From: a virus
Reading direction: 5' to 3' (one strand)
Length of the DNA: 20,540 bases
Virus record (IMG/VR): IMGVR_UViG_3300034106_001120
Span: 1-20,540 of that record
The notes under the pieces were generated by a model. That model made no database searches. It saw only the letters and a program-made list of their open reading frames with translations, and had not been told where the DNA came from. Of the stretch, positions 1,573 to 14,229 are shown piece by piece. The translations under genes and the position numbers were made by a program. How positions within the stretch are numbered: the first letter of the stretch is position 1; each line of letters opens with the position of its first letter.

Positions 1573-3300
1573 TCAGCGTCGGTATATGAATTCTTGCTCG
1601 GGAACATCAAACGATTGCCACGGCGGGGTTTGTCGGCGTTCTACTGGGGTCATGTTCATGCGTTGCTGGACAGCCCTTGACTCTGCCTCCCCTGCAAGGC
1701 GTTGATACAAATCAAAATCTGATTTTGCGCCCAATTCTCGGTATTTTTCCTGCACTTTCGCTGCTTTTACTGCGGCGTCCTGCGTTTCATTAAACACTTT
1801 GTTTGTTTTTCGCATTAACGACTTGGCTTTTTTCGGATCAACGGCGCCCTCAATGCCGCGCATTGCTGGTTCCTTGTTGTTGATCATTTCTTGCATGACC
1901 TTAACCGCTTGTTGCAGCCAACGATCTCGCTCTGGGCCTTTCTTTTTTGGCATCTGCCACCCAATCCCACGATGACCCAATTCTTCTGCCACTTTTGTGC
2001 CGTACTGATACCAATCCGACATATTGAAAACATCACGCGGGCGAATGTTTGGTTTCGTTTGCAACTCTTTCAGTTTTTGCGCGTATTGAGCGCGGGAAGC
2101 CATGCTTGATTGCGCTGCTGCCTGTGAACGCTTTACAAGTGCATTCTGGAACGGTTGCATTTCTTCACTGAATTGCTCATCCAGAATTTTTCTTGCCATT
2201 GCGGTGTTGCCGCCTCTAGCAAATCCCTCTTGTTCTTGCACGGCGTGTTGCAACTCATGTAGTAAAACGTCTTTGCCGCGTTCTAATTGATAACCAATAT
2301 CGTCCCTGATCTTTATTGTTCCTTCTGGAGTGTACGATCCCTCCACCCCGAGCCCAAGCTCTGCTGGGCCTGCCATTCTCACCTGTTTTTGAACAATGCC
2401 GGGATATGCTTTTTTCAGTTCTTCATGCGATAAAACCGATCCAACATTCGTGGAGAAAGATTCTCGGCGCGGCGCAAATTTTTCAACTGCGCTCAATCTA
2501 GATTGAATTTCGTCTGTTGTCTGGTTCTTGGCTATGTCAACAGCGCCAGCTTTAGGATTTCTTCCAAAAGTATCAGCAAACCATTTTTCCGCGCTTTGCG
2601 TTATTTTTTCTAATTCTTGCCGGGTGTTAGCTTCGCCAATGCCTAGCGAGGTTAAGCGATTTCTGATGTAAAACGCGTCATCAAATTGATCTGCTTGGTT
2701 TTTTGCTTTTTCTGCTGCTTGAGCAAATGCGGAACCGGGCCGATACTCTGCGCTCAAATCACTAATTTCTTGCTTCCAATCGCCACCAATACGACCTGTG
2801 CCGGTTTCGCGCCAAATAGTGTCGCGGTCAACGCCCGCCTTCTCCATTTCTATTGCGCGTTGTTCGGCAGTTGGGTCATAGGTTTTGGCTGATTTGCCGA
2901 TAAATATGTCGCGTTTACCAACACCGCCAGCGCCACGGGTCGGGCTAACCATTTCGCCAATGACCTCGCCTGCGCCCAACGGGCCGCTGGTGGCTTTCTG
3001 GGCGGTATAGCGCAGAGCGTCAGCGACGACCGAGGGATCGCGGATAACGGCTTTACCTGTTTCGTAGACGCCTTTAGCGGTGCCTACGGGGTCGGTGATG
3101 ATGCCCTTAACGCCCTCTAATCCAGTCGTCACCCCTCTGCCTAACCCGATAGAGAGGTTTTCTAGGTTGGTGCGAAAGTCTGCCCGAGGGGCGGGTTGGG
3201 CGGGGGTCGTGACTAACCCCGGCACCGATTCCATCATTCTGCGGCGGCGTTCTTCCTCGTAGGCGAGTGCGGCAGCAAGGCGGCTGCGGTCGGCGGCCAT
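1573..3300 (-). CDS. Large polyvalent-type protein with zincin-like HExxH motif
   Basis: This 575-aa protein may be carried in the virion and ejected into the host. Residues 1-128 form a low-complexity, Gly/Ala-rich, partly amphipathic region. From about residue 129 (KRDIFIGKSAKTYDPTAE) a different module begins, of a type I associate with large polyvalent protein (LPD) domains. HELQH at residues 348-352 is a textbook HExxH metallopeptidase motif, followed by a Glu/Gly-rich stretch (EGFARGGN) that could supply a third ligand. The C-terminal half is helical and charged. Its DNA is clearly richer in A+T over 1600-2900 than over 2930-3300, as if two parts were joined. It lies next to terS in the late block. 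Proteolytic activity is inferred from the motif only. Confidence 0.7.
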   Translation of the reverse strand: MAADRSRLAAALAYEEERRRRMMESVPGLVTTPAQPAPRADFRTNLENLSIGLGRGVTTGLEGVKGIITDPVGTAKGVYETGKAVIRDPSVVADALRYTAQKATSGPLGAGEVIGEMVSPTRGAGGVGKRDIFIGKSAKTYDPTAEQRAIEMEKAGVDRDTIWRETGTGRIGGDWKQEISDLSAEYRPGSAFAQAAEKAKNQADQFDDAFYIRNRLTSLGIGEANTRQELEKITQSAEKWFADTFGRNPKAGAVDIAKNQTTDEIQSRLSAVEKFAPRRESFSTNVGSVLSHEELKKAYPGIVQKQVRMAGPAELGLGVEGSYTPEGTIKIRDDIGYQLERGKDVLLHELQHAVQEQEGFARGGNTAMARKILDEQFSEEMQPFQNALVKRSQAAAQSSMASRAQYAQKLKELQTKPNIRPRDVFNMSDWYQYGTKVAEELGHRGIGWQMPKKKGPERDRWLQQAVKVMQEMINNKEPAMRGIEGAVDPKKAKSLMRKTNKVFNETQDAAVKAAKVQEKYRELGAKSDFDLYQRLAGEAESRAVQQRMNMTPVERRQTPPWQSFDVPEQEFIYRR

Positions 3301-3669
3301 TTACTTGAAACGCTCCAGCTTGTACGAAAGGGAGGCGATCTCGCCCACAATTTCGTCAATGATGTTCTGCAAGTCGGTGTCTTTGGGCAGGTCGGTGCGG
3401 ATGCCCTTTACGAACGTCAGCAGGCTGTCGGCGTAGGCAGCAGCGTCTTTCTGTACCTTAAACCCGTCCGGGTAGTCATCCAGCGGGATGATGCCGTGAT
3501 GCCCCTGATACGCCTCGGCGTACTTGTCAGCCAAGTCCACGATGTTCTCGTAGTAGTGACCGAGTGCTTTATGAGCGGCGTAGCTCGCGGTGTTGAGGTG
3601 CAGATAATGAGCCGCTGTGCTGCTATGGAGCAGTACACCTACGAACTCGGCGGCGTCTTTATGGCTCAT
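3301..3669 (-). CDS. Dps/ferritin-like protein (DUF5856-like)
   Basis: This 122-aa all-helical protein has a ferritin/Dps-type metal-site signature: His21, His24, His33, Glu41, Asp45, Asp48 and Glu52 in HYLHLNTASYAAHKALG and ENIVDLADKYAEAYQG. The spacing resembles the H-x2-H ... H ... D-x2-D-x3-E pattern of Dps, which binds iron and protects DNA from oxidants. It is shorter than bacterial Dps (about 160 aa), and similar short versions occur in phages. The start ATG overlaps the upstream methyltransferase stop (ATGA at 3666-3669), so translation is probably coupled. Its stop abuts the next start. The function (iron or oxidant protection, or a virion part) is inferred from the fold. Confidence 0.6.
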   Translation of the reverse strand: MSHKDAAEFVGVLLHSSTAAHYLHLNTASYAAHKALGHYYENIVDLADKYAEAYQGHHGIIPLDDYPDGFKVQKDAAAYADSLLTFVKGIRTDLPKDTDLQNIIDEIVGEIASLSYKLERFK

Positions 3670-4277
3670 TGCGGCGTTAGCCTCAAGTTGGGCAGGATGA
3701 TTGCAGTCGTAGCATCTCCCATCGCAAAACGCTCTGTCAACTGTCGTTCTGGCGGGTATACGAGGATGCGATTTGACAGGTTTATCTGCATCGCATTCCA
3801 GACGCCTTTCTCTATGCCCTCAAAGTCATCAAGGGTAATGATCGTGTCGGCGTGGAACAGGCGCTCAAGGTGTGTTTTATCGTCAGGCTGTAGCCGACCG
3901 TCTATGTGTAGGTGGTCTATTTGCCCATCCAGTTTGGCAAGCATTTCGGTGCTGCTGCTGTGGTACTGCGTGACGTTGGCGTAGATCGGGAGCTTGAAGT
4001 TGTGTGTCATATCGCACGTATGCACCTCGGTATCGCCCCGAGCCAGCACGAACGTGGACTTGCCAATGTAAGTGCCGATTTCCACCACGCGTTTCGGTTT
4101 GAAGTAGCGTTTAACTGCCCACAGGGCAATTAGGCTGGCGTTATTGGTGGAACCTGTCTGTTTAGCGGGGTCTAGCGCCTCAAGGTCGTCAAGGCGTTGC
4201 CACGGCAGGTCATCCAATCCGTCAAAAAGCGTATCCCAGATCGCTCTAGACAGTCGCTTACGATTTAAGTTCAGCAT
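3666..4277 (-). CDS. Class I SAM-dependent methyltransferase
   Basis: This 203-aa enzyme has a Rossmann-type SAM-binding motif, VVEIGTYIGKST, at residues 64-75. It also has HLHIDGRL (about 122-129), resembling the acidic strand 4-5 region of sugar or small-molecule O-methyltransferases, and TIITLDDFEG (145-154). The substrate is unknown. I chose ATG at 4277, which has GGGAG five bases upstream. A TTG at 4289 would add four residues but would use that ribosome binding site as coding sequence. Its 5' end faces the glycosyltransferase-like gene starting at 4289, only 11 bases away. A methyltransferase beside a glycosyltransferase suggests modification of a glycan on the virion or host surface, or of a modified base. 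That pairing is inference. Confidence 0.8.
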   Translation of the reverse strand: MLNLNRKRLSRAIWDTLFDGLDDLPWQRLDDLEALDPAKQTGSTNNASLIALWAVKRYFKPKRVVEIGTYIGKSTFVLARGDTEVHTCDMTHNFKLPIYANVTQYHSSSTEMLAKLDGQIDHLHIDGRLQPDDKTHLERLFHADTIITLDDFEGIEKGVWNAMQINLSNRILVYPPERQLTERFAMGDATTAIILPNLRLTPQ

Positions 4278-4282
4278 ATATT
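4277..4282 (+). promoter_or_regulatory. Possible -10 element (TATATT) giving a leaderless mRNA
   Basis: TATATT ends six bases before the ATG of the rightward glycosyltransferase gene at 4289. That gene has no visible Shine-Dalgarno sequence. If this hexamer is a -10 element, the transcript would start at or beside the ATG. The -35 region at the right distance (TCGCTT) is poor, so this is a weak call. Confidence 0.25.
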
Positions 4283-4288
4283 CTCCCA

Positions 4289-4945
4289 ATGCGCTTTGTA
4301 TTTTTCCACGTTGGCGACGATCTCGCCCTGCCGACCAAGATGGTTGCCAGTATTCATGCCCATAACCCCGGTGCCGAGGTGATCCAAGTCACCGACGGCA
4401 TGACGCCTACCGTCCCCGGTGTCACTTGGTCGCATATCACCGAAATTGACCGCCAGTACCTCATGCTCGGTCGCACAGGGGCGTGGGCAGATTTGGGGCT
4501 AGATAGCCCTGCCCTATACCTTGACACCGACATGATCGTAAACGCCCCCATAGACGTTGTGGGAGCGTTAGGCGAGGGGTCTGTGGCGATGTGTCGGCGG
4601 TCATACAACCGGGATGCCATCTTTAACATCAAACAGCGTGGCTTGGACTTTTCGGAGTACGCAGGCAAGACGCTGGATGAGCTTTATCCGTGGGTAGGGT
4701 GCTGCACCATTACCCGTGACGCCTCGGTGTGGGCTGACCTGACCGAGTTGTACTACGCCCTTCCCGAAAAATTCTGGCGTTGGTATGGCGATCAGGAAGT
4801 GCTGCGCGAATACGCCAAGCGTCACGCGGTCGTAGAACTTCCAGAGGCGATTTGGGCGGGGCTGCCCGAATTTGGTGGTCGCCCGCTGATTACCCACTAC
4901 AAGGGTCAACGCAAAGCCCTCATCTTGAATGCTCCGGGCGTATAG
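4289..4945 (+). CDS. Glycosyltransferase-like protein with DxD motif
   Basis: This 218-aa protein resembles small GT-A fold glycosyltransferases (GT8-like). A hydrophobic first strand with an early turn (MRFVFFHVGDDLALPTKM) is followed by ALYLDTDMIVNAP, with the metal- and nucleotide-sugar-binding DxD at Asp79-Asp81. LITHYKGQRK near the C-terminus fits the late His-containing motif of GT8-like enzymes. It is the only rightward gene in this leftward block. Its start lies 11 bases from that of the leftward methyltransferase, and its 3' end overlaps the convergent nuclease gene by 24 bases. No Shine-Dalgarno sequence is seen. Donor and acceptor are unknown. A related-looking enzyme sits at 10475-11143. 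Confidence 0.75.
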   Translation: MRFVFFHVGDDLALPTKMVASIHAHNPGAEVIQVTDGMTPTVPGVTWSHITEIDRQYLMLGRTGAWADLGLDSPALYLDTDMIVNAPIDVVGALGEGSVAMCRRSYNRDAIFNIKQRGLDFSEYAGKTLDELYPWVGCCTITRDASVWADLTELYYALPEKFWRWYGDQEVLREYAKRHAVVELPEAIWAGLPEFGGRPLITHYKGQRKALILNAPGV

Positions 4946-5243
4946 CCTCGGCGTAACGCTCGTATAGGTCTTTTACGGCTTGTTCGGGGTCACGGGCAAC
5001 GTAATACTCGCCCCTCGGCTCAAACGTCTGTCGGAACGCCTCCTGCGCCTCCCGCAGCTTGCCCTTGGGCATCTTGATTTCCACCCAGCATACCCATGAA
5101 GTGCCATCAGGTAGGTCACGCAGCACCAGTTTGTCGGGAATGCCTTGCCCTGCATTGCCGTAATCTACGACCGTAAACCCGGCTTTGCGTAGCGCCTCGG
5201 TGATGATGGCGTCATTCCCGTCACGGCGGGCGGCGTGTCTCAT
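4920..5243 (-). CDS. VRR-NUC-like PD-(D/E)XK nuclease
   Basis: This 107-aa protein shows the compact VRR-NUC layout: an N-terminal helix (RRDGNDAIITEALRKAGF), then GIPDKLV with Asp37, then WVEIKMPKG with Glu55 and Lys57, then Gln67 in LREAQEAF. This is the metal-dependent PD-(D/E)XK nuclease core, found in phages as Holliday-junction or flap-type nucleases. I chose ATG at 5243, whose ATGA overlaps the upstream stop. A longer frame from 5288 would overlap the previous gene by 49 bases. The 3' end runs convergently into the glycosyltransferase-like gene. The family is well supported, but the exact DNA substrate is not. Confidence 0.8.
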   Translation of the reverse strand: MRHAARRDGNDAIITEALRKAGFTVVDYGNAGQGIPDKLVLRDLPDGTSWVCWVEIKMPKGKLREAQEAFRQTFEPRGEYYVARDPEQAVKDLYERYAEAIRPEHSR

Positions 5244-5959
5244 CGGACTTTTAGCACCAGCATTTGTGGGAAATAATTCATTTCGCAAAAAATCCCATTT
5301 TTGCTGTCAATCACCCGCGTGATTTCGTCAAACAAGCCCGTTATCAGCCTACGGTCGTTTGGCAGGGTGCTGTTGAAGTTCCTGCGGAACCGAGCCGCGT
5401 AGCCCTCGTCATAGGTGCAGGCCAAGTCCTCAATGACGTAATAACCGCCCGAGCGCACCCATGTCTGGCAATGCACCAGCGTTTCTACGATGTCCTCGGC
5501 CATGTGGCTGCCGTCGTCCACAAACAGGTCTAGGGACTTGGCAGGCATTTCGTACTGGCGCGGGTCGGTGATCTGAATACGCACGTTGTCCAAGTCTTTG
5601 CAGAGGTTCGCGCACTCGGGGCGTATGTCAAAACCCCATATCACCGACGTAGGGCAGTAATTAGCCCACATCCGCAACGAGGCACCACACGCCACGCCTA
5701 CCTCGGCAATCTGCAACGGAAAGCGTTTGTGCGGGGCTAGTTCAGCAATCAGCTTTTCGTAGACTTTGGTGTAGCCGTGTTTGATGTTGCCTTTGTCGCT
5801 GCCGTACAAGTCGGCAAGGCCAGTAAGCGATAACTCTGCAAGGTCAACTTCACCCGTTTGCGGCGTGTATTCCTCCGGCGTGACCGTATCAAGGTAACGG
5901 CGTACCCCTCCTCGTTCCTTGCCTCGTTGATCGCTCTGCCCAACCATATTTGCCACCAT
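5240..5959 (-). CDS. Class I SAM methyltransferase, sugar-O-methyltransferase-like
   Basis: This 239-aa protein contains GSDKG ... HGYTKVYEKLI (about residues 53-71). It then has a glycine-rich SAM loop, IAEVGVACGASLRMW (84-98), FDIRPE (110-115), LFVDDGSHMAED (145-156) and GGYYVIEDL (171-179). This order is characteristic of metal-dependent macrolide-sugar or rhamnose O-methyltransferase-like proteins (MycE/TylF-type), where the aspartates around DDGSH bind metal. The substrate is unknown. The start is ATG at 5959 with AAGGG upstream, and an in-frame ATG at 5947 is an alternative. It is coupled by ATGA to the nuclease and lies six bases after the preceding gene. It is the second such enzyme in the block. 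Confidence 0.8.
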   Translation of the reverse strand: MVANMVGQSDQRGKERGGVRRYLDTVTPEEYTPQTGEVDLAELSLTGLADLYGSDKGNIKHGYTKVYEKLIAELAPHKRFPLQIAEVGVACGASLRMWANYCPTSVIWGFDIRPECANLCKDLDNVRIQITDPRQYEMPAKSLDLFVDDGSHMAEDIVETLVHCQTWVRSGGYYVIEDLACTYDEGYAARFRRNFNSTLPNDRRLITGLFDEITRVIDSKNGIFCEMNYFPQMLVLKVR

Positions 5960-5965
5960 ATTTGA

Positions 5966-6295
5966 TTACCCTTGACTCGGTTTAACGGGGGAATTTGCAC
6001 GTTTTAACTTCTCCACAGCCTTCTCGCCCCAAAGCTGACGTATCAGGCCAATAACATCCCTATCCGACAGCACAGCAGCAGGGCCAGCCTCGCGCACTAA
6101 TTCAGCCACCCTGTCACGGTTTACCTCTATGCCTCTGGCTAACTGTGCGTCGTAGAAGCGTAGTCGGTTCAGCGGAGATTGTCGTACCAAGTCATTCCAC
6201 GTTGCTGCGTTGGAGTGCAACTGGTGTTCTAGGTTGTGACTGGGTTTGGCCTTTTCAGTATTTACAGTCGGAGAGTAAATGTATTCATCACCCAT
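5966..6295 (-). CDS. Hypothetical phage protein
   Basis: This 109-aa soluble protein matches no family I can name. It has a disordered N-terminus (about residues 1-22) and then a helical, charged body with SPLNRLRFYDAQLARGIEV and LSDRDVIGLIRQLWGEKA. It ends in a Pro/Lys-rich tail. The start is ATG at 6295 with TAGG upstream. It is the first gene downstream of the repeat-bearing spacer at 6296-6418, so it may be the first gene of the leftward late block. That position suggests a regulatory or DNA-transaction role, but no motif supports this. Confidence 0.6.
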   Translation of the reverse strand: MGDEYIYSPTVNTEKAKPSHNLEHQLHSNAATWNDLVRQSPLNRLRFYDAQLARGIEVNRDRVAELVREAGPAAVLSDRDVIGLIRQLWGEKAVEKLKRANSPVKPSQG

Positions 6296-6418
6296 GTTAT
6301 TACCTATCTATGGTTTAAGACTATATGACTGATGGTGAACTCTGCACGGTTAAGACGGATTACGCCTAACGTGGATCGTGCAGAGATTAGATGACTGACG
6401 GAGCCACCCTGCTGTCGG
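6296..6418. promoter_or_regulatory. Non-coding control spacer with direct repeats and a dyad
   Basis: This is the only sizeable gene-free stretch in the left block. An 18-bp element occurs twice in direct orientation, at 6318-6335 and 6384-6401, with 15 of 18 positions identical (core ATGACTGAYGG). Between the copies lies a perfect 9-bp inverted repeat, CTCTGCACG at 6340-6348 and CGTGCAGAG at 6377-6385. On the minus strand, TATAGT (plus 6325-6320) is a reasonable -10 for the gene starting at 6295, but no good -35 is present. That fits a promoter dependent on an activator. The repeats could also be operator, packaging or replication sites. Confidence 0.5.
6318..6401. repeat. Pair of 18-bp direct repeats flanking a 9-bp inverted repeat
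   Basis: Copy 1 is at 6318-6335 and copy 2 at 6384-6401, with a start-to-start distance of 66 bp. They differ at three positions. The inverted repeat arms at 6340-6348 and 6377-6385 are perfect, with a 28-bp spacer. The arrangement is nested and compact, which suggests a protein-binding array rather than chance. Confidence 0.6.
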
Positions 6419-6820
6419 CTACTTTTCACCGGATTGCTCCGGTTGCCATTTGCGCTTCCCGACGATACGCCGCGCACCTACAGGCTGGCTGCCCCGGTGT
6501 AGGTTTAAGGTCACTCTGCGCGTGGTTTCCCCGACCAGAGTTCCCGAGTAGTTCGGCGTGGTGGGGTGGTTGACAGAACTAGAACAGCCCGTCAGACTTC
6601 CTTCCACGCTTAACCTGCAACCCGAGCGTATAGGTAGCCAGCCTACCGCGTCAACCCCCTTAATCGGGGGTTTGTCGTTTCTGGCTTCTGTAACGGCGTC
6701 AGAGACAATCCTAATAACCGCTTGCCATTCCCTCGCCTTACGTCTTGCGGCTCTTGCAGAGGCTCTACGGCGTTCTAAGTTGGCGTAGTAGTACGCACGG
6801 TGGTAGGCGGTACGGCTCAT
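6419..6820 (-). CDS. Hypothetical protein, distal half doubtful
   Basis: This 133-codon frame starts at ATG 6820 and overlaps the methyltransferase stop (ATGA), so its start looks real and translationally coupled. The first 50 or so residues (MSRTAYHRAYYYANLERRR and on) are basic and helical, resembling the Tyr/Arg-rich openings of small DNA-binding phage proteins. From about residue 55 the translation loses protein-like character and the DNA becomes rich in hairpins. It also includes a candidate promoter at 6627-6654. Either the C-terminal half carries overlapping control signals, or the functional protein was once shorter. No function is assigned. Confidence 0.45.
   Translation of the reverse strand: MSRTAYHRAYYYANLERRRASARAARRKAREWQAVIRIVSDAVTEARNDKPPIKGVDAVGWLPIRSGCRLSVEGSLTGCSSSVNHPTTPNYSGTLVGETTRRVTLNLHRGSQPVGARRIVGKRKWQPEQSGEK
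6428..6672. other. Cluster of four short hairpins inside a doubtful ORF
   Basis: Perfect inverted repeats occur at 6428-6443 (ACCGGA, 4-base loop, TCCGGT), 6476-6504 (ACCTACA, 15-base loop, TGTAGGT), 6633-6647 (GGTAG/CTACC) and 6653-6672 (AACCCCC/GGGGGTT, 6-base loop). None is followed by a T-run, so none looks like a classical terminator. Together they suggest structured RNA or protein-binding DNA. Confidence 0.4.
6627..6654 (-). promoter_or_regulatory. Candidate leftward sigma70 promoter with palindromic spacer
   Basis: On the minus strand, TTGACG (plus 6654-6649) and TATACG (plus 6632-6627) are separated by 16 bases. That spacer contains a perfect inverted repeat, GGTAG-N5-CTACC (plus 6633-6647). 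A stem-loop, AACCCCC-N6-GGGGGTT (6653-6672), overlaps the upstream edge of the -35. Transcription would start near 6620 and run toward the 6295 gene. The palindrome in the spacer could be an operator. Confidence 0.4.
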
Positions 6821-8172
6821 AGTTTGCTGACCTGTTTGATGCGTTTACCGATCCACGCCATGACAGGCACAGCCATGCTATTGCCCAACGCCTTGTACCG
6901 TGGGCCGTCTGGACTTTCGGGTGATTTACGCCATGGGATATTGGTATAGCCATCGGGGAAGCCTTGCAGCCGCTCGCACTCTACAGGCGTGAGGCGGCGC
7001 ACTTGCATAGCGGTTTGTGCAACATACGTTGTGCTTTCGTGTTTATCTGCTTTAGACGCGCCAGAACGCAAGCAATGTGCAACTGAATCAGATTCCGCTA
7101 CGCCAAACGCCACGGGTTGGGCGACCACATTTTGCCCACGATCTGCACAAGGACTGCTGTCGTGTCGTGCGGTCAAACTTCCAGCAATGCTGCCGAATTG
7201 GGTAATCGGCTGTGCAACAGCGTGGATGTCAGTCTTTGTTAGCGTAAACATTGCGCCCGTTGCATCAGCACCTAAACCGTTTGGGCCTGAATGTTCGTCT
7301 CTGCCGATCACCGTTGCTTGAATAGCAAATGTGTCCGATTCAAAGTCATACCGCTGCCCTGCTCCTGCCGTCAGCGTTTTGGCGATCAGCGTTTCGCTGC
7401 CGCCGCCAAGGTCGCCGCCATTGGCTCGCAATGTACCTACGCCCTCTCGGTACTCGGCAAGGCTTGAGGTGGTGAAAGCGCGTGATACAGGCACCATCTT
7501 GGCAGAGTTATGGTTCATTCCGTCTGTGCCGGGGTCTTTGTAGTCTCTTGCGTTAAGTGGGCCACAGAGTTCAACGCCTCCGCGAGTGCTAGAGGCAGTT
7601 CCTTGCCGCGCTTCTCGGCTCGGCGCAGGATGCCCCTGCAAGCTGTGGGACTCAAAAAGAACCGCTGCGGCACGTTGCCAACTTCTAGCGTTTGCGACAA
7701 CGAACACACGGCGGCGTCGCTGGGCCACTCCGAAATATTGAGCGTCCAGAACCCGGTAGGCGAACCCATACCCGAGTTCTGCCAACATTCCGAGGAAGGT
7801 TCCAAAATCCCGTCCTCCGTTAGACGACAAGACACCGGGGACGTTCTCCCATACCAACCACTCGGGCCTATATCTGCGAGCAATTGCGCCGTAGGTGAGC
7901 ATGAGATTGCCACGCGGGTCAGCCAATCCTTTTCGCAATCCTGCGACGCTGAAAGACTGGCAGGGGGTTCCTCCCACAAGAAGGTTGATTGGTTCATCAG
8001 GCCATTCCTCGTATTTGGTCATGTCGCCGTAGTTCGGCACGGCGGGGTAATGATGTTTCAGCACGGCGCACGGGAACGGCTCTATTTCGCTATACCAAGC
8101 CGCCTCCCACCCTAGGGGATGCCATGCCACCGTAGCCGCTTCAATGCCGCTACAGACGCTGCCATACCTCAC
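6817..8172 (-). CDS. dcm: DNA cytosine-C5 methyltransferase, phage type
   Basis: This 451-aa enzyme transfers a methyl group from SAM to cytosine in DNA. The motifs are in canonical order: I (GSVCSGIEAATVAW, 4-17), IV with catalytic Cys71 (GGTPCQSF), VI (WENV, 108-111), VIII (QRRRRVFVVA, 151-160), RLTPVECERLQGFPDGYT before motif X, and KALGNSMAVPV (427-437). The long region at 190-385 is an expanded target-recognition section with internally repeated modules. I chose GTG at 8172 because it overlaps the repressor stop (GTGA) and gives the usual MRYGSVCSG opening. A TTG at 8205 would lie inside the repressor gene. A phage enzyme like this probably protects its DNA from host restriction. Confidence 0.95.
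   Translation of the reverse strand: MRYGSVCSGIEAATVAWHPLGWEAAWYSEIEPFPCAVLKHHYPAVPNYGDMTKYEEWPDEPINLLVGGTPCQSFSVAGLRKGLADPRGNLMLTYGAIARRYRPEWLVWENVPGVLSSNGGRDFGTFLGMLAELGYGFAYRVLDAQYFGVAQRRRRVFVVANARSWQRAAAVLFESHSLQGHPAPSREARQGTASSTRGGVELCGPLNARDYKDPGTDGMNHNSAKMVPVSRAFTTSSLAEYREGVGTLRANGGDLGGGSETLIAKTLTAGAGQRYDFESDTFAIQATVIGRDEHSGPNGLGADATGAMFTLTKTDIHAVAQPITQFGSIAGSLTARHDSSPCADRGQNVVAQPVAFGVAESDSVAHCLRSGASKADKHESTTYVAQTAMQVRRLTPVECERLQGFPDGYTNIPWRKSPESPDGPRYKALGNSMAVPVMAWIGKRIKQVSKL
7515..7997 (-). CDS. Nested 160-codon ORF inside dcm, candidate overprinted gene
   Basis: This ORF lies entirely within the methyltransferase gene, on the same strand but in another frame. It has its own ATG at 7997 and a good ribosome binding site, GAGGA eight bases upstream. 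The translation has protein-like stretches, such as LWEEPPASLSASQDCEKDW and a basic amphipathic C-terminal helix, GILRRAEKRGKELPLALAEA. From memory, very similar stretches recur in annotated phage hypothetical proteins beside or overlapping phage methyltransferases. They could be a real overprinted family or a conserved shadow of methyltransferase motifs IV-VIII. Function is unknown. Codon-level conservation across homologues would decide. Confidence 0.4.
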   Translation of the reverse strand: MNQSTFLWEEPPASLSASQDCEKDWLTRVAISCSPTAQLLADIGPSGWYGRTSPVSCRLTEDGILEPSSECWQNSGMGSPTGFWTLNISEWPSDAAVCSLSQTLEVGNVPQRFFLSPTACRGILRRAEKRGKELPLALAEALNSVAHLTQETTKTPAQTE

Positions 8173-8327
8173 GGCTTGGCAACCTTGCCAGCTTGTAACT
8201 GCCAAAGACGAGCATCTGGCACTTTGCCCGCCTTAACCCATTGCTGTACCGCCGCCCGAGTAACCCCAAAAGCCTTGGCAACAGCGTACTGGGAGCCGTA
8301 TTTCTTGATGAGTTGCTGTGGTTTCAT
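8169..8327 (-). CDS. Cro/YdaS-like helix-turn-helix repressor
   Basis: This 52-aa protein starts MKPQQLIKKYGSQYAVAKAF and continues GVTRAAVQQWVKAGKVP. The helix-turn-helix spans about residues 12-32: SQYAVAKAFGV then TRAAVQQW as the recognition helix, followed by the KVPDARLWQLQ helix typical of Cro/YdaS-type proteins. It faces the early operon across an 86-bp control region whose dyad is its likely operator. Its stop overlaps the dcm start (GTGA), so both are made from one message. The leftward -10 ends eight bases before its ATG and no Shine-Dalgarno sequence is present, so its mRNA is predicted to be leaderless. It would repress the rightward promoter and its own. Confidence 0.85.
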   Translation of the reverse strand: MKPQQLIKKYGSQYAVAKAFGVTRAAVQQWVKAGKVPDARLWQLQAGKVAKP

Positions 8328-8333
8328 AATTTG

Positions 8334-8377
8334 TAGGATAGGGGGCTTGACATTGCCGTGTCAAGGAAACTATCCTA
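8334..8377. promoter_or_regulatory. Interlocked divergent promoters in one dyad, likely operator
   Basis: A dyad centred between 8355 and 8356 has arms TAGGATA (8334-8340)/TATCCTA (8371-8377) and CTTGACA (8346-8352)/TGTCAAG (8359-8365). Read rightward it is a promoter: TTGACA (8347-8352), 18-bp spacer, TATCCT (8371-8376). Read leftward it gives exactly the same elements: TTGACA (8364-8359), 18-bp spacer, TATCCT (8340-8335). Each -35 lies inside the other's spacer, so two polymerases cannot bind together. The inner 20 bp (8346-8365) is a plausible repressor site. A third TTGACA lies at 8385-8390 in the rightward leader. Confidence 0.75.
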
Positions 8378-8413
8378 TCAACCGTTGACAAACACAACAC
8401 AGGAGCAACAGAA

Positions 8414-8680
8414 ATGTTCAAGGATAAGTATTCAGCCCTCGGCACCTTCTACGCCCTTGGCAACAAGTTTGAAGTTGACGTTGAGTATTCGCAGGACATG
8501 GACAACAGCGTGTTCGTAGAAAGCGCCACCCTTGTCGGCATCTACTTGGACAACGACAAACACGCTTCCTCGCTCAACCACAACATCAAGTTAGACCTAA
8601 CCGACCTGTCAGCCGACGACGAGTTTGAGTTGACCGAGATTGCCACCCTTGATGCGCTCCGCAACGGGGGTTTGGAATGA
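8414..8680 (+). CDS. Hypothetical early protein
   Basis: This 88-aa acidic protein is the first gene of the rightward early operon. The ribosome binding site AGGAG (8401-8405) lies eight bases before ATG. The protein has a mixed beta-type N-terminus, YSALGTFYALGNKFEVDVEY, and an Asp/Glu-rich C-terminal half, DLTDLSADDEFELTEIATL. First-position early phage genes often encode host-takeover or anti-defence proteins, and an acidic surface would suit a DNA mimic or a protein binder. That is speculation. I recognise no family. The stop overlaps the next start (ATGA). Confidence 0.65.
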   Translation: MFKDKYSALGTFYALGNKFEVDVEYSQDMDNSVFVESATLVGIYLDNDKHASSLNHNIKLDLTDLSADDEFELTEIATLDALRNGGLE

Positions 8681-8799
8681 AAAGTCCTTGGCCGCAATTT
8701 ATAGCCATTGTCATTTTGTTCCTGATTGCTGCCGCCTGCGATCCCTGCGGGGACGGCGGTTGCACCGCAGCCGAGGAGCGAGCTTCCCATGCACGATGA
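8677..8799 (+). CDS. Small membrane protein or possible lipoprotein
   Basis: This 40-aa protein starts at ATG 8677, overlapping the preceding stop (ATGA). A hydrophobic segment, FIAIVILFLIAAAC (residues 8-21), follows a short N-terminus containing Lys2. It ends at a Cys that could be a lipobox cysteine, although Ala at -3 is not ideal. After it comes a Cys/Gly-rich stretch, DPCGDGGC, and a short charged tail. Small phage lipoproteins can block superinfection, but nothing here proves that role. Its 3' end overlaps the next gene's start by 11 bases. Confidence 0.5.
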   Translation: MKSPWPQFIAIVILFLIAAACDPCGDGGCTAAEERASHAR

Positions 8800-8917
8800 C
8801 GACATGACTTGGTGGCATCACCAAGACGAATTGATGCAGCAGTTGGAAGAACAAGAACGCATTGAAGCCTGTAACCGGGCATTGGATGAACTGAAAGGAG
8901 AAGAAGATGCAGAGTGA
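8789..8917 (+). CDS. Small acidic hypothetical protein
   Basis: This 42-aa protein starts at ATG 8789, with GAGGAG ten bases upstream. It opens MHDDDMTWWHHQDELMQQLE and is a single predicted amphipathic, Glu-rich helix. It overlaps the small membrane protein upstream and the ERF gene downstream (TGA at 8915-8917, ERF ATG at 8907). Its tight packing within the operon supports it as a gene. No function is recognised. The longer frame from a TTG at 8726 has no ribosome binding site and is not preferred. Confidence 0.5.
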   Translation: MHDDDMTWWHHQDELMQQLEEQERIEACNRALDELKGEEDAE

Positions 8918-9554
8918 AACCATCGGCGCATTGGCCGCCGCGTTATCCAAGGCGCAAGCCGACATTACGGGGGCGCTGAAAGACAGCAGCAACCCGTTCT
9001 TTAAGTCCAAGTACGCCGATCTAGCGTCGTGTTGGGATGCTTGCCGCAAACAGTTAGCCGCTAACAACCTTGCGGTAATCCAAACTATTTATGTGCATTG
9101 GGAAAGCGGCCAAACCATGTTGGCAACCACGTTGGTTCATAGCAGCGGCGAATGGATACGCAGCGATCTGCCGGTGCTTGCAAAAGACTTAAGCCCACAA
9201 GCGCAGGGATCAGGCATTACTTACGCCCGTCGCTACGCCCTCGCAGCGATTGTGGGGCTTGCCCAGATTGACGATGACGCGGAAGCTGCACAGGGGCGGT
9301 TCACTAACGACCCGCGTGGCGATCTGGGTAAGAAGTTTGACCAGAGCAAGCGTGACTCGTTCGTGCAGCAGTTCCGTAACGCGTTTGACCTAGACGCCGA
9401 GGAAAAAGATATAGCCCTTGCCGTTTTGGCGGTACATGAGGCGCTGAACCCAGACCATGACCTCTACATTGCCGTTGCAGATGTGTTGACGGCAAAGGAG
9501 CGGTCAGCAATCAAGAAGTACATCCAAATGGCAAAGGAGCAGAACCGTGCCTGA
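8907..9554 (+). CDS. erf: ERF-family single-strand annealing recombinase
   Basis: This 215-aa protein belongs to the ERF superfamily, which anneals complementary single strands during phage recombination and genome circularisation. Diagnostic features are IGALAAALSKAQADI at the N-terminus, NPFFKSKYADLASCWDA (about residues 29-45), and the central block GSGITYARRYALAAIVGLA, ending in the acidic IDDDAEAA (about residues 101-128). The C-terminal 80 residues are more variable and helical. AGGAG at 8897-8901 precedes ATG. SSB-like and nuclease genes follow directly, as expected for a recombination cassette. Confidence 0.9.
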   Translation: MQSETIGALAAALSKAQADITGALKDSSNPFFKSKYADLASCWDACRKQLAANNLAVIQTIYVHWESGQTMLATTLVHSSGEWIRSDLPVLAKDLSPQAQGSGITYARRYALAAIVGLAQIDDDAEAAQGRFTNDPRGDLGKKFDQSKRDSFVQQFRNAFDLDAEEKDIALAVLAVHEALNPDHDLYIAVADVLTAKERSAIKKYIQMAKEQNRA

Positions 9555-9747
9555 TGAAAAAGAAATGCCAATTTTGTTAACAATTAAAGATTTAGAAGCA
9601 ACTTTCCCGTTTAAAAAAAGTTGGGTTTACGACTCTATTGCAAAGGGAAATTTTCCTGAACCAATAAAGTTGAGCTACAACAAAAGCGTATGGCACCGAA
9701 AAGACATTCTTAATTGGCTTGAAAGAAAGAGGAAAAACCGTGGATAA
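9547..9747 (+). CDS. AlpA-family winged-helix DNA-binding protein
   Basis: This 66-aa protein has the AlpA/excisionase-like layout: LLTIKDLEATFPFKKSWVYD (helix-turn-helix, about residues 10-29), GNFPEPIKL and VWHRKDILNWLERKR. It probably acts as a transcription factor or DNA-architecture protein. The start is GTG at 9547 with AAGGAG seven bases upstream, inside the end of erf. An ATG at 9565 is possible but lacks a ribosome binding site. The gene is strikingly A+T-rich compared with both neighbours, which suggests recent acquisition into the recombination cassette. Confidence 0.8.
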   Translation: MPDEKEMPILLTIKDLEATFPFKKSWVYDSIAKGNFPEPIKLSYNKSVWHRKDILNWLERKRKNRG

Positions 9748-10024
9748 GTTTGACCCGAATATGCGTGGCGTCCTGTTCAAGAACGACAAGGGCGAGAACG
9801 CCAAACGTCCTGACTTTCGTGGGTCTTGCGTGATCAACAACGTGGATTTCAACGTGTCGGGCTGGAAGAAAACGAGCCAGAAAACGGGTGATACCTACTT
9901 GTCGCTCAAGTTTGAGGCGAAGGGCGAAGGCAAGCTGTCGCGTTCTGGCGAACCGCAGCGCCAGCCGACCAAGCAGCCGCAGATAACCGAAAAGAACTGG
10001 GACGACCTTGATACACCCTTCTGA
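9740..10024 (+). CDS. SSB-like protein with acidic C-terminal tip
   Basis: This 94-aa protein starts at GTG 9740 (AGAGG upstream) inside the end of the AlpA-like gene. The N-terminal core, MRGVLFKNDKGENAKRPDFR followed by VSGWKKTSQKTGDTYLSLKF, resembles a small single OB-type domain of the DUF736 kind. A Gln/Pro-rich linker then leads to WDDLDTPF at the very end. That ending matches the acidic, Phe-terminated tip bacterial SSBs use to recruit repair and replication proteins. Placed between ERF and a nuclease, it probably coats single-stranded DNA. The family call is an inference from pattern and context. Confidence 0.6.
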   Translation: MDKFDPNMRGVLFKNDKGENAKRPDFRGSCVINNVDFNVSGWKKTSQKTGDTYLSLKFEAKGEGKLSRSGEPQRQPTKQPQITEKNWDDLDTPF

Positions 10025-10478
10025 CTTTGAGGCACGGTTTAGGGCTAGTCGCCCGGCAGAGATTGTCGTGGCGACTTACCTATTGAACCTCGGGCATACG
10101 GTGACGTTGCCCAAACGTCGTATGGCGAAAGACTTTGCTGACCGCAAAGAGTTTGCCGATAAGGGCGACGTATATGCCTCGGGTAAACGGATAGAGGTGA
10201 AACACATTAAGCATGATTTCCAGTACGAGGCGTGGCCGTTTGAGACAGCCGCTATCTGTGCCAAGAAGTCGTTTGATGCTGCCGATCCTCGCCCCGATTA
10301 CTACTACATCGTCAACGCGAGCCTAACCGTGGCGGCGCTGGTGGATGTGCGAACCACGTTCCCTGATTGGTTGGTGCGGAAAATCACCGACAAGGAGCGT
10401 GGATACGACTACGACGTTTACGCCGTTGCGCCCGAATATCTAGCGTGGCGGTACATAGACTTTGAGGAACGATTATGA
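10008..10478 (+). CDS. PD-(D/E)XK nuclease-like protein
   Basis: This 156-aa protein has a nuclease core: GDVYASGKRIEVKHIK supplies Asp54 and the Glu63-x-Lys65 pair. An N-terminal helix carries SRPAEIVVATYLLNLGHTV, typical of the helix before the core strands. The C-terminal half, YYYIVNASLTVAALVDV, is beta-rich. I chose TTG at 10008 because it keeps this conserved-looking N-terminus. It overlaps the SSB-like stop, and no better start keeps the helix. In context it could be the exonuclease partner of ERF, or a restriction-like endonuclease. Activity is inferred from the motif only. Confidence 0.6.
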   Translation: MIHPSDFEARFRASRPAEIVVATYLLNLGHTVTLPKRRMAKDFADRKEFADKGDVYASGKRIEVKHIKHDFQYEAWPFETAAICAKKSFDAADPRPDYYYIVNASLTVAALVDVRTTFPDWLVRKITDKERGYDYDVYAVAPEYLAWRYIDFEERL

Positions 10479-11143
10479 CGGAACTCCCCATCTTCATCGG
10501 CTACGACAGCCGTGAGGACATTGCGTATCGGGTAGCGCGGCGATCCATTGAGCGCCATGCGCGAAACCCCATCTACATCCAGCCGATTGACCAAGCGTAT
10601 ATGCGCTCGGTCGGGCTGTATTGGCGGCCTGATGATCCGCTTTCGTCAACGCAGTTTAGTTTTACCCGGTTTCTTGTCCCCTACCTTTGTGAGTACAAGG
10701 GTTGGGCGGTGTTTCTGGATTGCGACTTCCTTGTGCGTCATGATTTGACGCAGATATGGCGCTATGTTGATAAAGCGAAAGCGGTCTTTTGCGTACACCA
10801 CGACTACAAGCCTACCGAAACGGTCAAAATGGATGGCAAGGCGCAGCATCCCTACGCTCGCAAGAACTGGTCGTCGTTTATGTTCATCAACTGCGAGCAT
10901 GAGGCAACGCAACGCCTCACGCCAGAGTTGGTGAACAGCGAGACGGGGATGTACCTGCATCAGTTTAAGTGGTGCGCTGACGATCAAATTGGCGAGCTAC
11001 CCATGACCTTTAACTACCTTGAAGGCTGGCACACCAAGGCTAACGAACCTGACCCGGTGTGCGTACACATGACCCGTGGCGGGCCGTGGTTTCCGGGGTA
11101 TCAAGATGTTGAGTACGCCGAGGAGTGGAAAGCGTATACATGA
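10475..11143 (+). CDS. Glycosyltransferase-like protein with DxD motif
   Basis: This 222-aa protein resembles GT-A/GT8-like enzymes: PIFIGYDSREDIAYRVARRS at the N-terminus, FSFTRFLVPYLCEYKGWAVF, then LDCDFL with Asp82-Asp84 as the metal-binding DxD. WSSFMFINCEH and VCVHMTRGGPWF supply further pieces of the fold, and His198 is a candidate metal ligand. It starts at ATG 10475, overlapping the nuclease stop, and ends overlapping the NinB-like start (ATGA). It sits in an early recombination operon, unlike the late-block enzyme at 4289, so an early target such as DNA or a host protein is possible. Donor and acceptor are unknown. Confidence 0.75.
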   Translation: MTELPIFIGYDSREDIAYRVARRSIERHARNPIYIQPIDQAYMRSVGLYWRPDDPLSSTQFSFTRFLVPYLCEYKGWAVFLDCDFLVRHDLTQIWRYVDKAKAVFCVHHDYKPTETVKMDGKAQHPYARKNWSSFMFINCEHEATQRLTPELVNSETGMYLHQFKWCADDQIGELPMTFNYLEGWHTKANEPDPVCVHMTRGGPWFPGYQDVEYAEEWKAYT

Positions 11144-11550
11144 AACGCATTTTCCCCAAAGGCACTACACCCGAGCAGATGGCGGCTGCCGTTATCCGCA
11201 TGACGCAAGGGCTAGACCCGAGCAAGGTGTGGGCGGTAGAGGTGGCCGAGTGGAAGAAGCCCAAAACCTCACAGCAGCTGGCCTACCTCTGGGGCGTGGT
11301 TTACCCAATGATCATGGAGGCGGGTGGAGAGGCGTTACAGGGCTGGACACGCGATGACCTGCATGAGTATTTCCTTGGTGAGATATTCGGCTGGGAAACG
11401 CTCACAGGGCTTGGCAAGAAGCGTCTGCGACCACTCAAGCGCACCTCACGCATGACTAAACAAGAATTCACCGAATACTTACACGGCATTGAGAACAGGC
11501 TGATAGAGCTTGGCATCGGGCCGTTACCGGAGCCGATCTATGCTGCGTAA
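11140..11550 (+). CDS. ninB: NinB-like recombination protein
   Basis: This 136-aa protein matches the NinB/Orf family, recombination mediators that work with SSB to load recombinases. Recognisable parts are WKKPKTSQQLAYLWGVVYP (about residues 44-62), GWTRDDLHEYFLGEIFGWE (about 74-92) and a C-terminal MTKQEFTEYLHGIENRLIEL helix. I chose ATG at 11140, which overlaps the glycosyltransferase stop (ATGA). A GTG at 11125 would add five residues. It overlaps the next gene by 11 bases. Confidence 0.85.
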   Translation: MKRIFPKGTTPEQMAAAVIRMTQGLDPSKVWAVEVAEWKKPKTSQQLAYLWGVVYPMIMEAGGEALQGWTRDDLHEYFLGEIFGWETLTGLGKKRLRPLKRTSRMTKQEFTEYLHGIENRLIELGIGPLPEPIYAA

Positions 11551-11824
11551 AGAAGCCCGAGGGCGTGGATGCACGGTGCGTATACCGGGCGTCTGTAACT
11601 TCAACTCCGAAACGGTCGTGCTTGCACATCTGCGCGTAGCAGGGGTGTCAGGCATGGGACTAAAGTCACCCGATCTGCTCGGTGCGTGGTGCTGTTCTAG
11701 CTGCCACGACGAGGTAGACGGCAGGACGCACAAAAGCGGACTGTCACGCGACGAGTTACGCCTAGCGCTATACGACGGCATGGCTCGCACCATCATGCAG
11801 TTGCACAAAGAGGGGTTGGTATGA
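11540..11824 (+). CDS. DUF1364-like Cys/His protein, possible HNH-type nuclease
   Basis: This 94-aa protein has a likely zinc-binding set: Cys11 and Cys19 in GCTVRIPGVCN, His30 in LAHLR, and Cys52, Cys55, His56 in CCSSCHDEVDGR. This pattern and length fit DUF1364, a lambdoid-phage family with an HNH-like fold usually found beside NinB. A role in DNA processing is likely, but catalysis cannot be shown here. The start is ATG at 11540, inside the end of the NinB-like gene. The 3' end overlaps the following gene by ATGA. Confidence 0.8.
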   Translation: MLRKEARGRGCTVRIPGVCNFNSETVVLAHLRVAGVSGMGLKSPDLLGAWCCSSCHDEVDGRTHKSGLSRDELRLALYDGMARTIMQLHKEGLV

Positions 11825-12372
11825 ACTTCTGGGCTGACACGCCTTATCTCACCGCGTACGTGCGTAACGAGTTCCTGCACGACCATGAGAAGGGCAAAGG
11901 TGAATTCACGCTATGTACGGTCTTTGGATTTCGTAGTGAAGTAATGCGCGCCCCCATGTTCCAAATCATGTTGGAGTCAGGCGCACAATGGGCGCGTATC
12001 CCGATTCACGCGCTGTGCAGTAAACCCTGCCCGGAAATGGCGTTACAACTGACTGTGTGGTGGGATAGCTTTAGCCGCAACTGTCAGGTCAAGGAGGTGC
12101 AGTTCCTACGTAACCACCGCGTCAAGGCGATAGGGCGTGACGGGGTGCAGCGCCCCGGCACATACTTGATGACCGTATTCTGGTGTGATGGCGGTTGGAG
12201 CGAGGTGCCTGACCAGAGCAAAGACCACCACATCATCGCTTTAGACTCGGGGCAATGGATTGCCTACCCTAACAATCGGTTGTTGTGGGTTGACCCGAGT
12301 TGGATCGGAGGGGAAGTGCCGAGGGATTGGCGCTCCCCCTCTGATAACTACAGCGTGGAGGCACTACCGTGA
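11821..12372 (+). CDS. Hypothetical early protein
   Basis: This 183-aa soluble protein shows no motif I can assign. It is rich in aromatic residues and appears beta-rich, with LCTVFGFRSEVMRAPMFQIM, WARIPIHALCSKP and a central LTVWWDSFSR. The C-terminal third contains YLMTVFWCDGGWSE and HHIIALDSGQWIAYPNNRLL, which read like paired beta-strands. Conserved-looking Cys and His residues are scattered rather than clustered. It is coupled to the DUF1364-like gene (ATGA) and to the next small gene (GTGA), so it belongs to the early operon. Confidence 0.65.
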   Translation: MNFWADTPYLTAYVRNEFLHDHEKGKGEFTLCTVFGFRSEVMRAPMFQIMLESGAQWARIPIHALCSKPCPEMALQLTVWWDSFSRNCQVKEVQFLRNHRVKAIGRDGVQRPGTYLMTVFWCDGGWSEVPDQSKDHHIIALDSGQWIAYPNNRLLWVDPSWIGGEVPRDWRSPSDNYSVEALP

Positions 12373-12494
12373 AACGGCTTATAAGGGCTTTATGGCGGTT
12401 CTGGCAGCAACGTAGCGCCGAGGCTAACCGAGAGTGGTCAAGCGTCCCTAATCCCGAGTGGCGGGCATCCAGAGGCGGAAGGGATTACTTTTGA
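12369..12494 (+). CDS. Small basic hypothetical protein
   Basis: This 41-aa protein starts at GTG 12369, overlapping the previous stop (GTGA). The sequence KRLIRALWRFWQQRSAEANR is a basic amphipathic helix with three Trp in the protein's first half and a fourth further on. The tail, PEWRASRGGRDYF, is also basic. It may bind DNA, RNA or membranes. It is too short to classify. Its stop overlaps the next start (TTGA). The coupling at both ends is the main evidence that it is a gene. Confidence 0.5.
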   Translation: MKRLIRALWRFWQQRSAEANREWSSVPNPEWRASRGGRDYF

Positions 12495-12697
12495 TAGATA
12501 ACGAATCCCCACCGGGGGCGTGGCGCGACGAGATGGCGCGAATGCCGTGGAAGTTTAGCCAGCAGGTCAAGGTTGAGCAGGCGCTGGCGGCGGTACGGCA
12601 GGCAGGGTTGGCCGTAGAGGCGACGATCTTGGCGCTGGAAATCAAGACAATCCAAGATGAGCTAAAAACATTGCGCGCTCGTCCTGACGGCGCTTAA
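12491..12697 (+). CDS. Small hypothetical protein, last gene of early operon
   Basis: This 68-aa helical protein is read from TTG at 12491, which overlaps the previous stop (TTGA) and has GGAAGGGA seven bases upstream. A GTG at 12458 is an alternative without such a site. It contains a coiled-coil-like C-terminal half, AVRQAGLAVEATILALEIKT and QDELKTLRARP. No family is recognised. Its last 56 bases overlap the end of the convergent lysozyme gene, so rightward and leftward transcription meet here. No terminator is visible between them. Confidence 0.5.
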   Translation: MIDNESPPGAWRDEMARMPWKFSQQVKVEQALAAVRQAGLAVEATILALEIKTIQDELKTLRARPDGA

Positions 12698-13136
12698 CCA
12701 GACCCGGCAATACGCGCCCTGCCGCCTTTGTCCACATCAGGAAGGCGTCAGCAGCGCCCTCTATGTCCCCTCGGTTGTAGCGCATCCGTATGCTGCTGCG
12801 CTGGAGGTTCCCAAGGCCGACGTTAAAGGCAAAACTCACCAGAGCATCAAATTGCCCTTGGCTATTAACAGCAGCAGGGCAAAGTCGGGCCACGCCGCGC
12901 TCAAACCGGCCAAGGTTTTGAGCAAGGATAGCGTCCACCTCTCCCATCGTGAGGCTGCGATCCCAGCCATCGGGTATCGGTAGGTTCTTCCGATCCTCAT
13001 ACTTCACCGCCGCGTGTGAGGGGTCAATAACGTGTCCGACTCCGACCGTCCATAGCAGAGCCGGACACCGATAAGGGCGCATCCTTACGCCCTCATGATG
13101 TTTTACGAGCTTTATTAGCTCGGGACTGACCTTCAT
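12642..13136 (-). CDS. Endolysin, GH24 lysozyme
   Basis: This 164-aa muramidase cleaves host peptidoglycan at lysis. The catalytic pattern Glu-x8-Asp/Cys-x5-Thr is present as Glu15 (KHHEGVRMRPYR), Cys24 and Thr30 (LLWTVGVGH). It carries the Cys variant instead of the Asp of T4 lysozyme. FDALVSFAFNVGLGNLQRSS (about residues 95-114) and the C-terminal GLVKRRQDERAMFL are standard GH24 motifs. No signal or SAR segment is present, so release needs a canonical holin. It is coupled by ATGA to the upstream membrane protein. Confidence 0.93.
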   Translation of the reverse strand: MKVSPELIKLVKHHEGVRMRPYRCPALLWTVGVGHVIDPSHAAVKYEDRKNLPIPDGWDRSLTMGEVDAILAQNLGRFERGVARLCPAAVNSQGQFDALVSFAFNVGLGNLQRSSIRMRYNRGDIEGAADAFLMWTKAAGRVLPGLVKRRQDERAMFLAHLGLS

Positions 13137-13618
13137 TTCTGGCTAAAGGCGCGACCACCAAAATGAAAGGCAATGATGCTGGCAAGAATTGCCATTTCAT
13201 CCTCGGAAAACACGTTTTCCAGCGCAATCGCAAACGGTACGCTTTGGTTCCATGCGTACCACATTCCAGCGATGTTGATGATGACTAGCTCTAGCACAAA
13301 GATGTAGGTAACCACCGGGCGCACCGAGGCGCGTAGGTTAATCATCCATTGGCTTGCACCTTTGCCAATCTCTACGTCGTGGCTATAGAGCGCCTGACGC
13401 TCCTCGGCAGCGGTCTGCGTCTGGATTTGCTCCAGCTTGATTTCCTCAACCCGTGCCTGCGCGATAAAGCCGCGTTCAGCGAGGGCAAGTTCACGCTCCT
13501 TCTGTGCGGCAACCAACGCAAGCTCATGCTTCTTGTCCTGCCGGTCTTGGAAGATTTGCAGAATCTTGGGCAAACCGCCCGCAAGGAACGACAGAAACGT
13601 GCTGATCATGGTCATCAT
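13133..13618 (-). CDS. Holin-like membrane protein with coiled coil
   Basis: This 161-aa protein has an amphipathic N-terminus, ISTFLSFLAGGLPKILQIFQ. A charged coiled coil (about residues 25-75) is followed by two hydrophobic segments: VVTYIFVLELVIINIAGMWY (about 102-121) and EMAILASIIAFHFGGRAF (141-158). The layout resembles the three-helix holin family linked to gene-transfer-agent and phage release. It lies immediately upstream of the endolysin and overlaps it by ATGA. Holin function is inferred from topology and place. A spanin role cannot be excluded. Confidence 0.7.
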   Translation of the reverse strand: MMTMISTFLSFLAGGLPKILQIFQDRQDKKHELALVAAQKERELALAERGFIAQARVEEIKLEQIQTQTAAEERQALYSHDVEIGKGASQWMINLRASVRPVVTYIFVLELVIINIAGMWYAWNQSVPFAIALENVFSEDEMAILASIIAFHFGGRAFSQK

Positions 13619-14028
13619 TTGGAAGCCCTCACTACATCGTCACCTTTGGTAACGGTCACATGGTCGCCCTCTACGTCCACGCGCATCGGCTGCTCTTTGC
13701 GGTCAAGTCGGTCTAGTTTGGCGATCAATTCCTTGATTACCTCAAACTCGGGCTTTTCTTCCTTCTCCACGGTGCCAGCAATGGACGCCAACATGGAGAT
13801 AAGGGCGGTCAGCGAGGCACCAAGCAGCCCCATCACGGCAGCGATCTTGTCCGAATCTAGCGCAAGGCTAGACAACACACCAATCACCACAATGGCTGTA
13901 ATGTATTTAAGGCCGTCTTTGCCGATAGCCTTGCCCGCGACATCCTTGGCGCTGCTGTGCGCCTCTAGGCGCTGCAATTCGGCTTGTATCTGAACCTTCA
14001 GCAGTTGGATGTCGGTAGGTTCGGTCAT
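13615..14028 (-). CDS. Small membrane protein of the lysis cassette
   Basis: This 137-aa protein has a helical N-terminus, QLLKVQIQAELQRLEAH. Two hydrophobic segments follow, YITAIVVIGVLSSLAL (42-57) and AVMGLLGASLTALISMLASI (64-83), then a charged C-terminus with ELIAKLDRLDRKEQ. It could be a second holin or an antiholin. It overlaps its upstream and downstream neighbours by ATGA, so the cassette is made from one message. No specific family is recognised. Confidence 0.6.
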   Translation of the reverse strand: MTEPTDIQLLKVQIQAELQRLEAHSSAKDVAGKAIGKDGLKYITAIVVIGVLSSLALDSDKIAAVMGLLGASLTALISMLASIAGTVEKEEKPEFEVIKELIAKLDRLDRKEQPMRVDVEGDHVTVTKGDDVVRASK

Positions 14029-14219: not shown

Positions 14220-14229
14220 CGCTTACCCC

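Follow-up and report, generated by a model that had tools for sequence, protein, structure and literature searches.

In phage lambda the transcription starts of the divergent promoters PR and PRM lie about 82 bp apart. Divergent repressor and early genes, with a repressor of the Cro family, are likewise found in the immB region of the telomere phages N15 and PY54, and in PY54 the cro mRNA was shown by RACE to be leaderless (PMC4488713). PY54 Cro, which belongs to the N15 family, binds one 16-bp palindrome, seemingly without repressing its own promoter, and autoregulation is therefore not a given for this Cro family (PMC4488713). In plasmid pLS20 the overlapping divergent promoters Pc and Pr are flanked by a repressor gene, have an operator lying over them and admit one polymerase at a time; these promoters are of unequal strength, are controlled by tetrameric RcoLS20 with DNA looping, and together with this regulator form a switch (PMC4207663). 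The bidirectional promoters described by Warman et al. (PMC12825309) consist of symmetric DNA on which a single polymerase at a time can sit facing either way; the -10 element is shared, and the starts are commonly separated by 10, 18 or 23 bp. In the five E. coli promoters of this kind tested by these authors, competition was of no consequence at the low basal activity and appeared on activating one direction. The locus presented here looks like a known kind of layout, that of overlapping divergent promoters, in a compact form, and not like a self-sufficient genetic switch.

The window, the whole stretch of viral DNA analyzed, is 20,540 nucleotides long (IMG/VR record IMGVR_UViG_3300034106_001120). 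Two identical promoters of the sigma70 type, TTGACA-18-TATCCT, lie at 8334-8377, one on each strand; both score 10/12 in the promoter scan with an 18-nt spacer. Read along the plus strand, the elements are AGGATA (8335-8340), GGGGGC, TTGACA (8347-8352), TTGCCG, TGTCAA (8359-8364), GGAAAC and TATCCT (8371-8376). The rightward early promoter has its -35 at 8347-8352 and its -10 at 8371-8376, the leftward cro promoter has its -35 at 8359-8364 and its -10 at 8335-8340 on the minus strand, and each -35 sits in the spacer of the opposing promoter, with the center of symmetry at 8355.5. Sequence, scan, center and the shuffles presented below thus bore out the description in an earlier note on this DNA of two identical, interlocked promoters with a common symmetry center. 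Both -35 hexamers are perfect consensus, while TATCCT matches the -10 consensus at only four of six positions. Symmetry hardly extends beyond the hexamers and a few flanking bases, in the window as in its relatives, and the 6-nt stretches between -10 and -35 (GGGGGC versus GGAAAC in the window) are mostly without complementarity; the dyad is two back-to-front promoters and not one perfect 44-bp palindrome. RNA polymerase covers roughly -55 to +20. Since the predicted starts of the two promoters are only about 56-57 bp apart, simultaneous occupancy is sterically implausible, and the earlier claim that the promoters cannot be occupied together is supported to this extent. By their coordinates the core elements overlap, as in other overlapping divergent sigma70 promoters, with exclusion of a second polymerase expected from the same geometry. 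Unlike the promoters of Warman et al. (PMC12825309), the two do not share a -10: the -35s interlock, the -10s are separate and outermost, and the predicted starts are 57 bp apart. A run of five or six G residues between the leftward -10 and the rightward -35 (8340-8345 in the window) was kept in most variants, and neither promoter is known to need a G run. The outer arms TAGGATAG and CTATCCTA were considered as a separate repeat family and rejected, as no more exact copies were present in the window and near-matches were at chance level.

No other site scoring at least 10/12 was found by the consensus scan anywhere in the 20.5-kb window. Sites of at least 9/12 numbered 3 in 1-13200 against 8.5 expected, and 2 in 13000-20540 against 4.1 expected. 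Dinucleotide shuffling of the window (400 shuffles) produced one interlocked pair in total under rules looser than the real pair needs, and the expected number of exact interlocked pairs is about 2e-8 per window. When 2.9 million viral contigs of IMG/VR were scanned, the exact geometry with 18-nt spacers was recovered from 11 contigs, all of the window's phage family; 17-nt spacers were found in 67 contigs (43 of this family and 24 others), 16-nt spacers in one, and a non-promoter control spacing of 20 nt gave 0 matches. In the literature searched, which left most subscription journals outside, no description was found of -35 hexamers lying inside each other's spacers.

Relatives of the window's Cro protein were encoded by 61 IMG/VR contigs of what is a freshwater phage group. 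These were collapsed by distinct 75-nt regulatory sequence to 36, of which 32 had the interlocked form. The earlier note would have been contradicted had related phages kept only one of the two promoters; both were intact in all 32 distinct interlocked variants, with Cro identity down to 71%. The leftward -35 was invariant and the rightward -35 was exactly TTGACA in 31 of 32 (TAGACA in L033). Hexamer columns carried 1.55-2.0 bits versus 0.3-0.8 for the center, which drifts in sequence and is either 5 or 6 nt long; the change in center length leaves the two spacers both at 17 or both at 18 nt, always equal and as sigma70 requires. At the -10s, where relatives have TATCCT or TATCAT, 29 variants paired TATCCT with TATCCT, two paired TATCAT with TATCAT and one (L062) paired TATCAT with TATCCT. 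Co-variation of the halves, raised as a check by the earlier note, was therefore seen in the matched pairs, but its strict form is ruled out by the mixed pair, in which the halves differ. Between -10 and -35 the sequence was mostly G6 on the left and GGNAAC on the right, with complementarity largely absent. Symmetry limited to the promoter elements and a few adjacent bases is better explained by selection acting on two promoters than by selection acting on a single long palindrome bound by a protein. No DNA match to the window was found among named phages. The nearest Cro proteins there were those of Pseudoalteromonas phages PHS21 and AL (57-64% identity over part of the length), and in a quick look at the intergenic DNA of these two phages the dyad was not seen.

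The leftward gene (8169-8327, minus strand) encodes a 52-aa repressor of the P22 Cro family (P22_Cro, PF14549; E=3e-11, 43.3 bits against a curated cut-off of 30.2; PHROG transcriptional regulator), for which the nearest solved structures are P22 Cro (1rzs) and N15 Cro (2hin). Cro was the only regulator of the searched families to fit this gene. The leftward -10 and the ATG were separated by 8 nt in 24, 7 nt in six and 6 nt in two of the 32 interlocked variants, and by 6 nt in group B, L081, L082 and L083, as wherever a cro promoter of another Cro type could be scored. A distance of 6-8 nt would place the cro start on or beside the A of the AUG (8327, minus strand in the window), and the cro mRNA is thus predicted to be leaderless, as in PY54. 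Downstream lies an accessory gene for a C5-cytosine DNA methyltransferase (dcm; 6817-8172, minus strand; PF00145, E=1e-51), with a probable GTG start placed from the sequence and from L023. The earlier note had set a repressor/dcm transcript against the early operon. The small repressor gene and the early operon are indeed opposed, but dcm was found in only five of twelve relatives and is missing from the L046 genome, which has the interlocked form. The probable GTG start at 8172 overlaps the cro TGA stop (GTGA, 8169-8172), which suggests that translation of the methyltransferase is coupled to the leaderless cro mRNA.

On the rightward side, a G was conserved 7 or 8 bases past the early -10 in all 32 variants and marks the predicted start of the early mRNA (8384, plus strand). 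The leader GTTGACAAACACAACACAGGAGCAACAGAA (8384-8413, plus strand), with the ribosome-binding site AGGAG at 8401-8405, is retained when the upstream Cro module is swapped. The first early gene (8414-8680, plus strand) encodes a protein of 88 aa for which the Pfam search gave no known family. It is followed on the same strand by genes for an ERF-type single-strand annealing protein (8907-9554; PF04404, E=7e-23) and an AlpA-like helix-turn-helix protein (9547-9747; PF05930, E=3e-5), and further products of the operon are SSB, NinB and a YbcO-like nuclease. The AlpA-like protein is a possible second regulator. The element GTTGACAAACACAAC near the early start was considered as a Cro operator and rejected, since a change of Cro type leaves it in place beside the early gene.

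Other Cro types are also found next to this early leader and 88-aa gene. With type 2 Cro (recognition stretch TKGAVSQ), the early promoter has GTTTAG-N4-CTAAAC and the cro promoter has GTTTAG-N4-TTTAAC, and with type 3 Cro (SPPAVSR), both have GTTAAC-N4-GTTAAC or close variants. These palindromes adjoin both -10s, and one kind of Cro would contact both promoters. The promoters of types 2 and 3 lie side by side or at a greater distance from each other, with predicted start-to-start distances of 75 to about 117 bp (the cro promoter partly identified by eye). Nearly coincident -35s (TTGACA and TTGTCA, offset by one base) are seen in group B and L081, where the predicted starts are about 63 bp apart. 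Judged from these sequences, the locus forms a graded series of interlocked, coincident and side-by-side promoters in which interlocking is one stage and is not required; the non-interlocked promoters of the sister modules indicate that the control logic can do without interlocking. The phage group offers a natural series of variants of a single control region, with related Cro proteins and predicted starts about 56 bp (interlocked), 63 bp (coincident -35s) and 75-77 bp or more (side by side) apart, and the effect of promoter overlap on a repressor circuit becomes directly testable with small synthetic pieces. Upstream of position 3001 in L075-L078, L081-L083, L085 and L087, at least four Cro specificities precede the common early leader and 88-aa gene. 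A locus with several Cro specificities looks like one at which immunity-type modules are swapped. At some of these loci an extra early gene and a second copy of the operator-bearing promoter are inserted between.

The central inverted repeat of the window, CTTGACA-N6-TGTCAAG over both -35s (8346-8365), is probably the Cro operator, and we treat it as a candidate. Judging from PY54 Cro and from the palindromes of types 2 and 3, Cro is predicted to bind an inverted repeat at both promoters; between the divergent genes the window has this single dyad, while sister types 2 and 3 have a palindrome at each promoter. An unbiased search for a 16-bp palindrome common to all type-1 regions returned none except the -35 dyad with its variable center, and in group B the -35 dyad palindrome is weak. 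The candidate operator dyad spans 18 bp in the window and 16-18 bp in relatives. Its half-sites are spaced by 4, 5 or 6 bp although the Cro helix is almost invariant, and L012 has N5 where the window has N6, yet its Cro differs only at the C-terminal tail. Variable spacing with a near-constant Cro is the weak point of reading the dyad as a shared operator, as a rigid dimer operator should not allow it.

Lifestyle was addressed by profile searches of twelve relatives, with records of 24-37 kb which may be fragments. Each of the twelve contained exactly one P22_Cro gene. No tyrosine or serine integrase (PF00589, PF00239), no CI-type peptidase repressor (PF00717) and no HTH_3 match outside the Cro gene was found in these possibly incomplete records. 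Relatives of this Cro were also absent from prokaryote genomes (one per species, 84,980 species), giving no cellular prophage relatives. The large terminase was closest to that of Rhodoferax phage P26218, followed by those of phages that include several of Pelagibacter. On these data the phage group is likely lytic or at least non-integrating, although missing CI and integrase genes are no proof where records may be fragments. As with lambda PR/PRM and immB, the locus has divergent repressor and early genes and a Cro-family repressor. Unlike those systems it lacked a CI-type repressor among the searched families, and its predicted starts are 57 bp apart; a single dyad was seen in the window, where those systems have several operators. 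Neither the two opposing repressors nor the temperate lifestyle, with integrase or prophage, of a lambda-type immunity switch was found among the searched families in the twelve possibly fragmentary relatives and the 84,980 genomes.

The reading which we favor, and regard as reasonably probable, is that the dyad is a compact pair of overlapping divergent promoters in a lone-Cro phage that is probably lytic, with a shared promoter site and early shut-off autoregulated by Cro. Two near-identical promoters for host sigma70 would be folded together, the rightward one transcribing the early genes and the leftward one a leaderless cro mRNA, with dcm downstream of cro in some members. As one RNA polymerase at a time could bind, the promoters would share the site and competition would set the ratio of the transcripts. 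Rising Cro would then bind the inverted repeat over both -35s and turn down the early promoter and its own, and the outcome would be early shut-off under autoregulation rather than bistable switching. On this reading the locus would be a minimal control region with Cro alone, in phages that are probably lytic, and its repressor specificity can be swapped. The earlier note had gone further in proposing a very small genetic switch, in which early and repressor transcription become mutually exclusive through polymerase competition alone, ahead of any action by a repressor. Interlocking would exclude double occupancy, pLS20 shows that overlapping promoters of unequal strength can form a switch with a regulator (PMC4207663), and with two perfect-consensus -35s competition at the dyad may be stronger than at weak bidirectional promoters. 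Competition alone has no feedback and hence no memory, however, and so cannot hold a cell in one state but only sets a ratio. The promoters here are equal, whereas pLS20 needs unequal ones plus its regulator, competition was negligible at basal activity in the five E. coli cases (PMC12825309), and the sister Cro modules have non-interlocked promoters. With one Cro per record and neither integrase nor CI-type repressor in the twelve relatives, we found no support for a switch of this kind and regard it as very improbable.

An unlikely alternative is that the palindrome is conserved as the Cro operator, with the leftward -35 merely its second half and the leftward promoter weak or unimportant. 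This would fit with group B and L081, which retain the right half as TGTAAA though their leftward promoter is best read with TTGTCA-17-TATTCT/TATCCT, with the 6-N4-6 palindromes of Cro types 2 and 3, and with the 16-bp palindrome bound by PY54 Cro (PMC4488713); yet the leftward -10 lies at exactly 17/18 spacing in 32/32 variants, the center varies in length with nearly the same Cro, and cro, present in every relative searched, needs a promoter directly beside its AUG. It is improbable that the leftward promoter also drives the long leftward block (terminase and beyond), so that the dyad divides early from late and not repressor from early genes. Between cro and the terminase almost every predicted gene points leftward, and the window has no further promoter of at least 10/12, but late phage genes often use other promoters which a consensus scan misses, a rightward gene (4289-4945) lies inside the block, and terminator prediction was at chance level. 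Chance or simple crowding without joint function is barely credible: promoters often overlap in tight phage intergenic regions, and coincident and side-by-side versions do occur at this locus, but against this stand the single pair in 400 shuffles and retention across 32 variants with Cro identity down to 71%. The reading that interlocking is itself a selected device was judged unlikely. Equal, mutually occluding promoters would then hold repressor and early transcripts at a fixed ratio with little noise from the first minutes of infection onward, competition would time early shut-off before Cro acts, and the palindromic sigma70 module would have arisen independently in unrelated viruses and bacteria as a general ratio-setter. 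The dyad resembles pLS20 Pc/Pr in its overlapping promoters beside a repressor gene, with equal promoters, a -35 inverted repeat and a 52-aa Cro here in place of unequal promoters, a tetramer and looping (PMC4207663).

The interlocked architecture is rare, yet not confined to the window's phage group, and the palindromic promoter geometry recurs in unrelated genomes. In a phi29-like viral lineage (L208, L210, L211 and L218), TTGACA-17-TATAAT, with a consensus -10, occurs once per strand in the interval that separates divergent genes for a packaging ATPase and a holin, named by eye (L208:8472-8512, L210:1655-1695, L211:4310-4350), and no helix-turn-helix or repressor gene was seen beside the dyad. 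Two further viral lineages matched the pattern and were set aside, X, where the match precedes a T4-like gene for a single-strand DNA-binding protein, and Z, where it lies at a T4-like gene boundary before DNA polymerase (both by eye), as neighboring genes in each are co-directional and the reverse promoter may be incidental. In Firmicutes-type genomes the stricter interlocked pattern was found at seven loci, including L274 and L275; in L274 the dyad is flanked by an endonuclease-III-like gene and, divergent from it, a gene for a membrane protein, both named by eye from translations. Near-perfect symmetric promoter palindromes were observed in Firmicutes-type genomes at L270:3415-3455, L274:4848-4888 and L275:7839-7879, one beside a GntR-type regulator gene and two with the same membrane-protein neighbor.
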